Positions 1,585 through 42,351 of a stretch of 42,581 nt of DNA are shown piece by piece (position 1 is the first letter of the stretch; each line of letters starts with the position of its first letter). Position numbers and translations under genes: made by a program. The DNA is taken from NCBI GenBank assembly GCA_005888755.1, contig VBBQ01000035.1:1-42581 (forward strand), written 5' to 3'. The notes beneath the pieces were generated by a model. That model saw only the letters and a list, made by a program, of their open reading frames with translations. It ran no database searches and was not told where the DNA came from. The DNA comes from Candidatus Bathyarchaeota archaeon. Its GTDB lineage: Archaea; Thermoproteota; Bathyarchaeia; 40CM-2-53-6.

Positions 1585-2631
1585 TCAGCCGAACATGGCG
1601 CGAATATTCTCCGCTAAAGGCTGACTAACCACACCACGGTCCGTCACAATCCCAGTCACCAGCTCGGGCGGAGTGATGTCGAAGGCCGGGTTCAAAGCCC
1701 CAACGTTCTGGGGAGAAAAGCGCCTCCCGCCAATCAACAGAACTTCTCTCTGATCCCGTTCCTCAATAACCACGCGAGACGGGTCGGTCACCAGATCCAG
1801 CGTTGATACGGGAGCGGCCACATAGAACGGAACGCTGTGGAACTTTGCAGCAAGGGCGATCGGCAGGGTCCCGATCTTGTTCGTGACATGTCCGGTGCCC
1901 AAGATCCTGTCTGCCCCAACGATAACTTTGTCCACCACTCCCTGAGCCATCAGCTGCGCAGCAGCGTTGTCACAGATTACCCGGACTGGAATTCTGTCCC
2001 TAGACAGTTCAAACGCGGTCAACCTGGACCCCTGCAACAGCGGCCGCGTCTCTGTCGCGATCACGGACACATTTTTCCCGTCCTCGACAGCCGAACGGAC
2101 CACCGCCAGCGCAGTACCGTAGCCCGCAGTCGCGAGAGCCCCCGCATTACAGTGAGTCAGCACGGTATCTCCATCCTCGATCAGACCTGCGCCAAAGCGT
2201 CCGATGTTGTGAGCGGCCTCAAGTTCCTCGCGAAGAATCGCATCGGCCTCCCGTCTCAACTCATCACCCAAAGATGCGACCGAGTCGACCTGGAAAGATG
2301 CTTTGAAGACTCGCTCGACAGCCCAGCGAAGATTCACACCCGTCGGCCTTGTCGAGATCAGAGAGTCAGCGGACTTGCGAAGCTGGGACCTCGCCTGACT
2401 CAAATCCCCGTCCCTGATCTTCAACGCGGCCAGAACCAAACCATAGCCACCAGCAACACCGATCAACGGCGCACCTCTGACCTTCATGGACCGGATCGCG
2501 GAACAAACCTGGTCCACGGTCCGCATACGAACATAGACCAGCCTTCCCGGCAGCCTCGTCTGGTCAATAGCCTCCAGAACTCCACTCTTCCATCTAACTG
2601 GTTCGAGAGAGTCTCGGTTTTTCCCAGGCAT
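1585..2631 (-). CDS. mtnA: S-methyl-5-thioribose-1-phosphate isomerase (MtnA/aIF2B-like family)
   Basis: A 348-residue protein of the eIF2B alpha/MtnA fold. Visible signatures are GAPLIGVAGGYG near residue 53, RPTGVNLRWA near 95, THCNAGALATAGYG near 159 containing the catalytic-type Cys, ATETRPLLQGSRLTA near 192 and VGADRI near 238 with the catalytic Asp. MtnA interconverts methylthioribose-1-phosphate and methylthioribulose-1-phosphate in methionine salvage; in archaea relatives can act as ribose-1,5-bisphosphate isomerase, but the N-terminal region here fits MtnA better. Length is normal. It is divergent from endA across an 85-nt gap with a TATA-like element. A repeat copy abuts its 3' end. 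Confidence 0.85.
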   Translation of the reverse strand: MPGKNRDSLEPVRWKSGVLEAIDQTRLPGRLVYVRMRTVDQVCSAIRSMKVRGAPLIGVAGGYGLVLAALKIRDGDLSQARSQLRKSADSLISTRPTGVNLRWAVERVFKASFQVDSVASLGDELRREADAILREELEAAHNIGRFGAGLIEDGDTVLTHCNAGALATAGYGTALAVVRSAVEDGKNVSVIATETRPLLQGSRLTAFELSRDRIPVRVICDNAAAQLMAQGVVDKVIVGADRILGTGHVTNKIGTLPIALAAKFHSVPFYVAAPVSTLDLVTDPSRVVIEERDQREVLLIGGRRFSPQNVGALNPAFDITPPELVTGIVTDRGVVSQPLAENIRAMFG

Positions 2632-2672
2632 TTCTCAAAACTCTGCTACTTGATCCCAATTGTTCGCATGCC

Positions 2673-2680
2673 TTTATAGA
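2673..2680 (+). promoter_or_regulatory. TATA-like element between mtnA and endA
   Basis: TTTATAGA lies 37 nt upstream of the endA GTG and reads as a TATA-like box on either strand, so it may serve one or both of the divergent genes. No start-site data can be seen. Confidence 0.35.
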
Positions 2681-2716
2681 CGCCTGCCCGCCGCTAGCGC
2701 TCTCAAATCGTAACTG

Positions 2717-3247
2717 GTGCCTTGCTTGATGACGATAGAAGTTCTAGAAGCCTTCCTCTCCAAGAACAAAATCTACCTGAAAGAACCCGAGAAACTCATG
2801 GAGCTCCGAGAGAAAGCCTTCGGGACCTTGGCGGAGGACAAGCTCTTCCTGAGCCCCTACGAAACATTCTATCTCGTCGAGAAAAGAAGAGCCCGAGTAA
2901 CTGATGAGAAGACGGCGAAAGAGAAGACGCTCCAACATCTCGTCACAAAACTGTCCGTTGGGAAACCAACAATATGGACAAAGTATCTAGTATACCGAGA
3001 CCTACGCGATAGAGGCTATCTGGTCCGAGAGTCCGAGGGAGGCTTCGACTTCGAAACCTTCGGAAAAGGAGCGACCCGACGACAAGTATCAATCGTCTTC
3101 GAAGGAGGAGAATCCACCCTCGAAAGACTCGCGAGGCTCTCCGCAAAAGCGAACAAGGAAGGCAAAGACCTAGTCCTCGCAGTAATCGACAGACGCACAG
3201 ACATCGTATATTATACGTTGAACACTGAACGGTTCGAAGGAAAATAG
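2717..3247 (+). CDS. tRNA-splicing endonuclease family protein, probable structural (non-catalytic) subunit
   Basis: A 176-residue protein (GTG start; an ATG four codons in, at 2729, is equally likely). The C-terminal half carries the EndA fold signature YLVYRDLRDRGYLV followed by the beta segments of the nuclease domain and LVLAVIDRRTDIVYY. In catalytic EndA the loop VYxxG holds the catalytic Tyr and GHSxYLV the catalytic His. Here the equivalent positions read ETFGKG and RQVSIV, so Tyr is Phe and His is Val; the third residue, Lys, seems kept (GKDLVLAV). Known heterotetrameric archaeal enzymes pair a degenerate structural subunit with a catalytic one and accept non-canonical introns. That suits the intron-rich tRNA genes on both sides. 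The catalytic partner is not in this window. hisS follows after 26 nt, so they are likely one operon. Confidence 0.8.
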   Translation: MPCLMTIEVLEAFLSKNKIYLKEPEKLMELREKAFGTLAEDKLFLSPYETFYLVEKRRARVTDEKTAKEKTLQHLVTKLSVGKPTIWTKYLVYRDLRDRGYLVRESEGGFDFETFGKGATRRQVSIVFEGGESTLERLARLSAKANKEGKDLVLAVIDRRTDIVYYTLNTERFEGK

Positions 3248-30780: not shown

Positions 30781-32871
30781 ATGGCGCTTAAGCTCACCGA
30801 CCTCAAGACAGACGTCCACAACGACTGGTGTCCAGGATGCTTAACAGGAGATACACTTGTACTTTCGAACCCAGCGGTCAAAGCAATCCAAGATGTCCGA
30901 CCAGGTGAGCGGGTCCTCACCGCTGCAGGAGAGTATAGAGAAGTTGTTGCAAGAATTCAGCATCACTACAGTGGTCCAATGTATCGTGTTCGAGCCAAGT
31001 GTTTTGGAGAAATCAAAGCGACGCCAGAACATCCCTTTGTTGTTGTTAGGAGAACATCAGGCAGACACTATCATAATAGTGACTTTGTGGAGGAAAGAGT
31101 GCAGGCTTCAGATCTCAGAGTAGGAGACTACTTCGTCTTCCCAGTGATGCAGAAGGTCGAAGACGCCGGAACATTTCCATTCAATTACGAAGAGAAAGCA
31201 AAGGACACCCGACATGGGCTACCGCCCTCGGTAGTGAACATTGATGCGGATCTCCTGCGATTAGCTGGCTATTACATCGCAGAGGGGTCTGCACACGGGA
31301 GGTCGCTGATTTTCAGTTTCAGCCAAGCGGAAGCATACCTGATCCACGATACAAAAGCGTTGATGGAGAGAATATTCAGACTAAGGGGCAAGCTCGCGGA
31401 GGCTAGAAAGAACGGTATCGACGTAGTCTTCAATTCTTCATACCTTGCGAAAGCATTTGAGGCGTTATTCGGAAACAGAGCTTGGAACAAGCACATCCCG
31501 CACGAACTCATGTTACTACCGCCCTCAAAACAAAAAGAGCTCATCAAGGGTTTGTGGCGAGGTGATGGAGACTTTAGAGATGCGAAGGCTAGATACAGCA
31601 CAACCTCTGTCGTGCTTGCTGAACAAATGAAGCTTCTACTTCTACGTCAGGGCATCGTTCCAATAACCTCTGTTGAGCATGCACACCAAAATCACAAGAG
31701 TGCCTATAGACTGTATGTCAGCTACTCGAGGGACTACAACAAGTTAGCTGAAATTGTTGGTGTTCCAGCTCGCAAAGATACTAGCAGAGACAAGCGCTCC
31801 TCCGTAATTAGAAACAGCAGACTATATCTTCCCGTTTCTCAAATTGAGACTTTTCCTTTTGACGGGAATGTCTACGACCTTACCATCAACGACCCGGCCC
31901 ACACTTTCGTAACAAGCGTCACAACCTCGGGAAACTGCGGAGATTTTGGTATCGAGGCTTCATTGAAAATGGCCCTGACAGAGATGCCGGTTGATATCAA
32001 CAAGGTTGCACTATTCTCCGGAATCGGATGTTCCAGCAAACTTGTCCATTTCACTAATGCCTTCGGAATCCACACGCTACACGGAAGGGTACTAGGTTAC
32101 GCCCAGGGCGCTAAACTCGCCAATCCGGATCTCGAAGTGATAGCGGTTGGAGGCGACGGTGACGGGCTCGGAATCGGAGTGGGACACTTCGTACACGCTG
32201 GAAGGCGGAACATAGACATGGCCTACATCATACACGACAACGGCGTCTACGGCTTGACCAAGGGACAGGCCTCTCCGACATTGCATCTGGGAATGCAGAC
32301 GAAATCTCTTCCTGAGCCGAACATTAACAGTAATATCAACCCGATAATGCTCGCGCTCGCATCAGGGTTCACCTTCATCGCCCGTAGCTACGCGTACAAT
32401 ACGAGACATCTCAAAGAGATGATCAAGAAGGCCGTCGCCCACAAAGGCTTCGCCCTGATAGATGCGCTTCAACCATGTCCAACATACAACGACATCAACA
32501 CGAAAGAGTGGTACGGCGGCGAGGACCGAATCGATCCAACAGCGAAGAGACCGATGCCCCGAACCTACGATCTAGAAAGCACCGGGTACAATGGTACGAT
32601 CACTGCAGATATGAGCCAAGACGAGATTGACAAGAACCTTGTGCAGGTCATAGAGAAATCGAGAGAATGGGGAGACAAGATCCCGATAGGCATCTTCTAC
32701 CAGAACGAGACGGTGCCGATTTACGAGGAACGAATCAGTGAAAGAATCCCCAGCTACATGAAAGAACCGCCTGCAAAACAACAAATCGGCAAGAGCGACG
32801 GAAAGTCCGTCGTGAACCTAGCTAATCTTTCGAAGGAATTACTATTCGAAAGCCTGGTACTTGCGCAGTAG
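30781..32871 (+). CDS. 2-oxoacid:ferredoxin oxidoreductase beta subunit precursor with intein
   Basis: A 696-residue precursor. Residues 1-19 and 386-696 make the mature beta subunit of about 330 residues. The conserved start [17 protein letters not shown] is split by an intein just before the second Cys. Downstream are the thiamine-diphosphate-binding segments [34 protein letters not shown] and [15 protein letters not shown]. The mature enzyme pairs with the gamma-alpha chain. Because the CPGC motif is interrupted, the precursor should be inactive until splicing. Confidence 0.93.
30838..31935 (+). mobile_element. KorB intein with LAGLIDADG endonuclease
   Basis: A 366-residue intein. Block [10 protein letters not shown], block B TPEHPFVV, and block F/G region [17 protein letters not shown] ending SGN before Cys+1. 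Its endonuclease has two LAGLIDADG motifs: [16 protein letters not shown] and [14 protein letters not shown]. Splicing residues are Cys1, terminal Asn (penultimate Gly rather than His) and Cys+1. The missing penultimate His is a known variation. It appears complete and able to home. Confidence 0.9.
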
Positions 32872-40186: not shown

Positions 40187-40214
40187 ACGGCGGGTTCAAA
40201 TCCGTTTCCCGCCG
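40187..40214 (+). promoter_or_regulatory. 7-bp hairpin before the radical SAM gene
   Basis: CGGCGGG (40187-40193) pairs perfectly with CCCGCCG (40208-40214); the 14-nt loop contains TTCAAAT. It ends 6 nt before the candidate GTG start at 40221 and could affect translation. The loop resembles a tRNA T loop, but no tRNA could be folded around it. Confidence 0.4.
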
Positions 40215-40220
40215 GTTCTG

Positions 40221-42351
40221 GTGAAAATCAACGATCAAAGAAGCACTCCTCTACCAGCCACTGGCCGATTCAAGGGTCCGATGCACAGCATGCGCCCGAT
40301 ACTGCAACATTCCCGAAGGAAAGGTAGGCCTTTGCGGGGTCCGCCAGAATATCGGCGGAAAACTCCAACTCCTGGTCTATGGAAAAGTGATCACCGGACA
40401 TATCGATCCTATCGAGAAGAAGCCTGTAGTCCACTACATGCCCGGATCCAAAATATTCTCAATCGCAACAACCGGTTGTAACTGGCTCTGCCATCCCGCT
40501 GGCGCGGAGATCCTACTATCAAACGGCGATAAGAAGCCAGTAGAGGAATTGCTGCCCGGAGATTCTCTCTGGTCTTATGACATAGACAATGGGATGAGTA
40601 TTCATCCAAACGTCGTCACACGTACAGGGTCACGTCTTGCCCGGATCTGGGAGCTGAGATACGGAGCCAGGGGTGCTGGACATCTCTCCCTCACTGCCGA
40701 GCATCCGGTTATGACTGGCTCCGGATGGAAATCTGTAGAGAAGGTTGTGCCGGGGGAAAAGATTCTGAAAGTCTGGTATCAGAATACAAAAGACTGGAAA
40801 CGTAAGAGGCCGGGCTCGATTCAGCGAGCTGTATTCAACTGCACAAAATGCGGAGAGTCGGTGAAAGGAATTGACAACTGGAATCGGCATCGGGGACGAT
40901 GTTACACCGAGGGAATGGGCATGTCTCCAGAGGTCCGGGAGCATCATCGGCAGAGAATGATAAGCGACAACCCGATGAGAGACCCCGACGTTGCTAGGCG
41001 CGCAATAGGCTCGAGCAAGGAGAGATTCCTTCGAGACCCGAATCACGGCTGGCACAGAAATACCGAGAGGCTCAGGACCTGGCTGCACTGCCATCCTTCT
41101 GAAGGCCAGAAGAGGCTATATGAACTTCTTGACGAAATGGGCTTGGAATACGATCAAGAGTATGGAATTCACCCGGATCTTCGTCCTCCGAATTCCCGAG
41201 CTACATATATCGCCGACGCGGCATTTCCCGATTCAAAACTGGACATCGAGGTAGATGGCTGGTGGCACTACAAGCACGAGGCAACTCGCGAGAGAGACCT
41301 TGTTAGGGATCAAACACTTCACGCGAATAGGTGGCAAGTTCTCAGAATATCGGGCAGGCACGTGTATAATCATCCTGAAGAGGTGAAGGCGCTAATCGTA
41401 CAACATCTTGGGGCTCCCTTAATGCTAAACAAGCGAACATGGGTAGAGGTAACAAGCGTAAAGTCGACGGTTCATTTTGAACCGGTATACAGCTTCGAAT
41501 GTATCCCCAACCACAACTATGTTGGTGATGGTGTAATCCTCCACAACTGTGGCTACTGTCAGAACGCCGATATCAGCCAGCGGAGGAAGGTGGAGGGTAC
41601 TGATCTCATGCCTCCTGACGTTGTTGGCTTGGCAGTAAGCCACGGTTGTCAGGGGATTGCGTACACTTACAACCAGCCGACGATTTTCATGGAGTTCGCG
41701 CGAGATATCGGGGTTGAAGCTCGTAAGAACGGGCTCATCAACATCTTCGTCTCCAACGGATTCGATACACCAGACACTGTCGCGATGATGGATGATTTTC
41801 TAGATTGCATAACGGTTGACTTCAAAGGAAGCGCGGAGACGAGCTTTGTCAGAAAGCATATCGGAATACCGGATGCGCAACCAATTTTCCAAACGATACA
41901 GGAGATCAAGAACCGGGGCAAGACGCACATCGAGATCACGGACCTGATTGTGCCGGGGATCGGCGACAATCTTGACGAGGCGCGGAAGCTGACCCGCTGG
42001 CTCTATGACAACCTAGGACCTGACGTGCCAATCCACTTCCTCCGATTCCACCCTGACTACAAGCTCATGCATTTACCAAGTACTCCGGTGAAAACTCTTG
42101 AAGAGCACTGCAGAGTAGCCAGGGAGGAAGGTCTGCGATACGTCTACGTTGGGAATGTTCCCGGACACCGATGGGAACATACGTACTGCCCAGAATGCAA
42201 GTCTATAGCAATCAAAAGATACGGATTCGACATCACCGGATGGAATCTGGATGACAAGAACAGATGCATGAACTGCGGCTACCAGCTACCAATATTTGGC
42301 CAACTCAGCTCGTCAGTCAGCGAAGACAGATTCCTACCTGTCGTCAACTAA
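40221..42351 (+). CDS. amrS: AmmeMemoRadiSam-type radical SAM protein with intein; start region frameshifted
   Basis: From a GTG at 40387 the frame is open to 42351, but conserved coding extends upstream in the same frame: KEALLYQPLADSRVRCTACA, then CNIPEGKVGLCGVRQN and IGGKLQLLVYGKV, the usual N-terminus of this family, with no start codon before the stop at 40222. A GTG at 40221 (KIN then, one base later, IKEALLYQ) would give the natural start, so one extra base is probably present near 40233. The intein splits the radical SAM motif: CNWL-CGYC makes CxxxCxxC after splicing. Then AYTYNQPTIFMEFA, NIFVSNGF and a C-terminal zinc pair CPEC...CMNC. The natural substrate of this radical SAM family is not established. 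Confidence 0.85.
40489..41547 (+). mobile_element. intein with zinc-finger and Vsr/DUF559-like nuclease
   Basis: A 353-residue intein between CNWL and CGYC of the host radical SAM motif. Block A is CHPAGAEILLSNGDKKPVEE, block B TAEHPVMTGSGW, block F/G VYSFECIPNHNYVGDGVILH ending HN before Cys+1. The insert has a CxxC...H...C zinc finger (CTKCGES ... HRGRC), a NUMOD3-like basic region (VREHHRQRMISDNPMRDP), then a nuclease domain with EGQKRLYELLDEMGLEY, ADAAFPDSKLDIEVDG and RWQVLRISGRHV. This matches Vsr/DUF559-like PD-(D/E)xK (EDxHD) enzymes, not LAGLIDADG. Confidence 0.85.

Follow-up and report, generated by a model that had tools for sequence, protein, structure and literature searches.

The components of the element described here are already known, as inteins in radical SAM enzymes and as Vsr-like homing nucleases. 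For the MoaA intein of P. abyssi, redox control by a trap between Cys-3 and Cys1 is reported (Callahan et al., 2011, cited after PMC10663303 and PMC3922620). This intein resembles the one analyzed here in its oxygen-sensitive radical SAM host and in an extein cysteine near Cys1, but its host is another enzyme and its trap involves Cys-3, whereas our intein has its extein cysteine at position -4. Inteins in radical SAM proteins are also represented by two NCBIfam profiles. NF038136 (intein-containing Rv2578c family radical SAM protein) is matched by locus L074 (E = 4.7e-9) from five residues before Cys1 through Cys+1 (profile positions 68-335), which suggests that the corresponding site is occupied in a radical SAM family other than the present host; the copy studied here matches at E = 0.0021 only. 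No mention of the Rv2578c intein was found in the literature searched. NF045703 (intein-containing tetraether lipid synthase Tes) is matched by inteins located at the third motif cysteine, with E = 4e-18 in the related genome G018, where the match takes in both flanks, and E = 5e-19 at locus L091; it concerns a LAGLIDADG-type intein and not the intein at 40489-41547 that is the subject of this report.

With respect to the nuclease, I-Bth0305I and the EDxHD/Vsr-like homing endonucleases share with our intein the nuclease fold, the DUF559-type profile and the presence of extra DNA-binding modules, which adjoin the Vsr-like domain in nucleases of this type (PMC3943268). I-Bth0305I is described among phage intron-type nucleases, whereas the nuclease reported here lies inside a contiguous intein in a chromosomal archaeal gene. 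In Corynebacterium phage phi673, a nuclease ORF nested within a helicase gene combines a cysteine-rich finger, an NPMKDP segment and a DUF559-like domain in the same order and within a Hint-containing gene, but it shows 28% identity, and its frame differs from that of the host gene, in the Hint region of which this DUF559-type ORF is located (L125, about 2460-3107). Dassa and colleagues are said to have described this nuclease family in 2009 beside split inteins. In the part of the literature that was searched, no report was found of a contiguous archaeal intein that carries this nuclease within this host.

Here, we analyze a stretch of 42,581 nucleotides of contig VBBQ01000035.1 (the window) from the metagenome-assembled genome (MAG) of a Bathyarchaeia soil archaeon. 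We consider it highly probable that the element at 40489-41547 is a homing intein of full length that has settled in an invariant motif, and that no regulation need be invoked to explain it.

Insert, Splice Junctions and Host Enzyme

The open frame of the intein-containing gene extends on the forward strand from 40225 to 42351, with the stop codon at 42349-42351 and an uncertain start codon. It comprises an N-extein (40225-40488) that ends in TTGCNWL and carries the first cluster cysteine at -4, an intein of 353 residues (40489-41547) that runs from Cys1 to the terminal His352-Asn353, and a C-extein (41548-42348) that begins with CGYCQN and in which Cys+1 is the second and Cys+4 the third cluster cysteine. 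The host is an AmmeMemoRadiSam radical SAM enzyme (TIGR04337, 258.6 bits against a cut-off of 220), the CxxxCxxC motif of which is present without the insert. The intein enters before the second cysteine of this motif (CNWL/CGYC), which is rejoined once the intein is removed. The insertion is in frame, so that removal leaves an intact host protein, and homologues with an empty site exist; the orthologues read GC(N/S)W.CSYCQN at this position without a gap. Pfam Intein_splicing (PF14890) is matched by the insert with E = 7.1e-9 (36.1 bits against a cut-off of 35.8). The intein and its placement before the second cluster cysteine, as given in the preliminary description, are borne out.

All class 1 intein residues are present, namely Cys1, the TxxH of block B (T69/H72), the terminal H352/N353 and Cys+1. 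The N-terminal half of the Hint splicing domain (40489-40773) contains T69xxH72, and the C-terminal half (41431-41547) ends in SFECIPNHNYVGDGVILHN; the predicted Hint model resembles the RecA and DnaB inteins (Z about 19 over 134 residues). Judged by these motifs and this fold, the Hint domain most likely excises itself with Cys1 and Cys+1 as nucleophiles and would thereby restore CxxxCxxC. In the unspliced chain the intein Cys1 stands in for the second motif cysteine, and the third position alone is lost. It had been stated outright that the host cannot bind its cluster before splicing; because Cys1 keeps CxxxC in the precursor sequence, we regard this as likely only.

Zinc Finger and Vsr-like Nuclease

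Between the two halves of the Hint domain, a CxxC-HxxxC zinc finger (40834-40905) is followed by an NPM(K/R)DP helical segment (40954-41061), a probable DNA-binding linker, and by a Vsr-like/EDxHD-type (DUF559) nuclease domain (41089-41412). The finger residues C118, C121, H134 and C138 are invariant in 13 of 13 relatives. The nuclease residues D243, E254, D256, H260, D270 and R273 are likewise invariant among the 13 aligned relatives and are candidates for the catalytic residues of the EDxHD type. Pfam DUF559 (PF04480) matches the insert above its cut-off (E = 7.6e-8), and every one of the 13 relatives matches both DUF559 and MTES_1575. Pfam LAGLIDADG gave no match in the insert at E = 5, while the G018 intein reached 1e-8 in the same scan, and Pfam HNH gave no match either; the best match of the insert in PHROGs is a family named HNH endonuclease, matched over its middle part only. 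The central region was modeled with a pLDDT of 85. Its predicted nuclease fold superimposes on the catalytic domain of I-Bth0305I with Z = 11.9 and an rmsd of 2.4 over 92 residues, on NGO0050 with Z = 12.1 and on Vsr with Z = 9.0-10.5, and a Foldseek search with the nuclease region ranks I-Bth0305I first.

Profile searches of the insert had been proposed earlier as a check on the claim of a non-LAGLIDADG nuclease. In these, the central domain matches DUF559 and no Pfam LAGLIDADG or HNH profile, so that the claim is not refuted, and the invariant finger, the DUF559 profile and the I-Bth0305I/Vsr fold matches uphold the description as a zinc finger with a Vsr/DUF559-type nuclease. For the segment in between, which had been called NUMOD3-like, Pfam NUMOD3 gave no match even at E = 10 in 13 relatives, although such short repeats are easily missed; NPM(K/R)DP is conserved in the relatives and recurs in a phage nuclease, and the term therefore denotes a resemblance only.

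Distribution, Transfer and Selection

Within the genus, the genomes of which are fragmented assemblies and, where named, metagenome-derived, seven carry the intein, eight have an empty site and three are not assessable. Full-length copies occur in 8 of 256 genomes of the class and in 9 of 398 sampled genomes of the phylum. All of them, in Bathyarchaeia as in Nitrososphaerota, occupy the same residue of the same gene and no other site; the named relatives are Candidatus Bathyarchaeota soil MAGs, RBG_16_50_20, several Nitrososphaerota MAGs and one unplaced archaeon. Scans of viral contigs found no viral relatives. Matches on plasmids were short DUF559 stretches and not inteins like that of the window, and other DUF559-like matches in the phylum proved, when their frames were read, to be helicase-type proteins and not inteins.

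The genome of the window (G000) and the related genome G014 differ by a dS of 0.026 in the intein and of 0.49 in the exteins. Along the intein their identity is about 0.97-1.00; in the adjoining 100 nt it is about 0.96 upstream and 0.99 downstream, beyond which it falls to 0.81-0.93. Around the junction 48 nt are identical, whereas a variant site of the G017 type differs at 22 of 48 nt. In a further genome, G016, the exteins group with those of the empty-site genome G011 (support 98/89), while the intein lies inside the intein clade of the genus (100/100), so that an intein of the G010/G000 type is combined with exteins of the G011 type; the two trees are in well-supported conflict. Selection on the nuclease is purifying (dN/dS about 0.05-0.13 in pairs of Bathyarchaeia); the extein dN/dS of the pair G016-G010 was left out as unusable because of a frameshift in G016. 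Recent movement of the intein between related species is well supported. Taken together, these features are what homing with co-conversion of a short flank, in which cutting is presumed, would be expected to leave behind; general recombination in the region, instead of cutting, could in part have contributed to the high similarity of the inteins.

Proposed Persistence at an Invariant Motif

In the proposed mechanism, the zinc finger, the NPM segment and the Vsr-like nuclease most likely recognize the empty site, which spans the codons of the radical SAM motif, and cleave it there, whereupon repair would copy the intein and a short flank into the cut allele. The intein would persist because its target encodes a motif that leaves the host little room for change and because an imprecise deletion would abolish the enzyme. 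Inteins as a group favor conserved host residues (PMC2814812). Since they need Cys, Ser or Thr at +1 as well as an invariant target, placement at a cluster cysteine is expected; it is not in itself evidence of regulation.

The preliminary description had suggested a redox switch. According to this explanation, oxidation would join Cys1 or Cys+1 to a motif cysteine by a disulfide and leave the precursor unspliced, so that production of the oxygen-labile enzyme is confined to reducing conditions, or splicing would respond to metal. We judge this to be possible yet unlikely and find it unsupported at this locus. Cys1, Cys+1, Cys-4 and Cys+4 do all lie at the motif, but the enzyme requires the extein cysteines for its function, so that their presence is no evidence for a switch. 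Precedents exist in the Cys-3/Cys1 pair of P. abyssi MoaA and the Cys1/Cys+1 pair of Pab PolII (PMC10663303, PMC3922620), and another intein of the window, at an Fe-S CPG/C motif, has a cysteine at -3; here, however, the nearest extein cysteine is spaced at -4 and not -3, and it would be retained for enzyme function anyway. C338, the sole other intein cysteine outside the finger that is common to most copies, is replaced by Thr in several relatives. Close relatives live without the intein, and this absence together with the pattern of transfer fits a selfish element.

It is very unlikely that the intein was vertically inherited and domesticated, with splicing kept and homing inactive. This would agree with the occupation of one site in deep lineages of two archaeal groups, but it is opposed by zinc-finger and nuclease motifs that are intact in every aligned copy, by the low nuclease dN/dS, by the tree conflict of G016 and by an intein dS far below the extein dS between G000 and G014. 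Regulation is unnecessary to account for the intein, which has the appearance of a selfish element in good repair and not of an established switch.

Start and Integrity of the Host Gene

The gene start had been placed at 40221, but the GTG at this position belongs to another frame, and the true frame is open from 40225. No ATG, GTG or TTG was found in the host frame before 40387. In G000, G013 and G014 an extra A (GTGAAAATC, 40221-40237) pushes the usual GTG out of frame. Candidates for the start codon are ACG at 40231 and ATC at 40234, and the sequence suggests a start at one of these or slippage. Just 5' of the gene, at about 40189-40213, lies a hairpin-like sequence (GGCGGGTTCAAATCCGTTTCCCGCC) that is conserved in several relatives and resembles a tRNA T-arm; a tRNA had been suspected immediately upstream from GGTTCAAATCC, and ARAGORN and Rfam find none there. 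The G014 copy (L036/L060), the intein of which is otherwise 98% identical, has an in-frame TAA within the zinc-finger region, and one allele may therefore be dead or misassembled; unless it is an assembly error, this TAA would block the whole enzyme. The C-extein of G016 carries a frameshift. That the gene is decayed or misassembled and yields no active enzyme, for which the missing standard in-frame start codon and the lesions in G014 and G016 could be cited, is nevertheless extremely improbable, given a window frame that is uninterrupted through 708 codons, strongly conserved exteins (dN/dS 0.02-0.03) and a change in the start region that is common to three genomes.

Other Inteins in Iron-Sulfur Proteins

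A second intein of the window (30838-31935, forward strand, 366 residues) is of the LAGLIDADG type and lies in the ORF 30781-32871, which encodes a 2-oxoacid:ferredoxin oxidoreductase beta subunit. Within the Fe-S motif CPGC, the cysteines of which we take to bind the cluster, it directly precedes the second cysteine. A cysteine stands at -3, the position used by the redox trap of MoaA, and the intein is also present in G015 (87%). In G018 (L039:1144-2553), the same AmmeMemoRadiSam enzyme is interrupted ahead of its third motif cysteine by a LAGLIDADG-type intein with a nuclease unrelated to that described above, and a related LAGLIDADG-type intein lies ahead of the third motif cysteine in a radical SAM protein that is more distant (L091, in G218).

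The window's genome is intein-rich, with about a dozen more in a census that rests on profile searches (contigs C1, C3, C11, C17, C18, C27, C30, C37 and C43). Their hosts, named from reading the sequences, include CDC48, EF-2, MCM (two), NrdJ, PolB, an ATP synthase subunit, helicases, endonuclease IV and others, and the insertion sites are P-loops and MCM, polymerase, ribonucleotide reductase, helicase and metal-site motifs. Several show a match to the nuclease portion of a LAGLIDADG intein and DUF559 occurs once, so that the claim that this nuclease class is rarer than LAGLIDADG holds within this genome. We think it quite unlikely that unrelated inteins repeatedly pick radical SAM and other Fe-S motifs in these archaea, as at the second and third motif cysteines of one enzyme and the CPGC of another, because splicing at a cluster cysteine gives useful redox or metal control, which would make the intein both mobile and a conserved switch.

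Significance

The nuclease type is seldom reported inside inteins, and the locus provides a natural series in which close archaeal relatives have either an occupied or an empty allele for one Fe-S enzyme. This series permits direct tests of homing by such nucleases, and it permits testing whether splicing at a cluster cysteine is regulated or whether inteins merely survive best at invariant residues.
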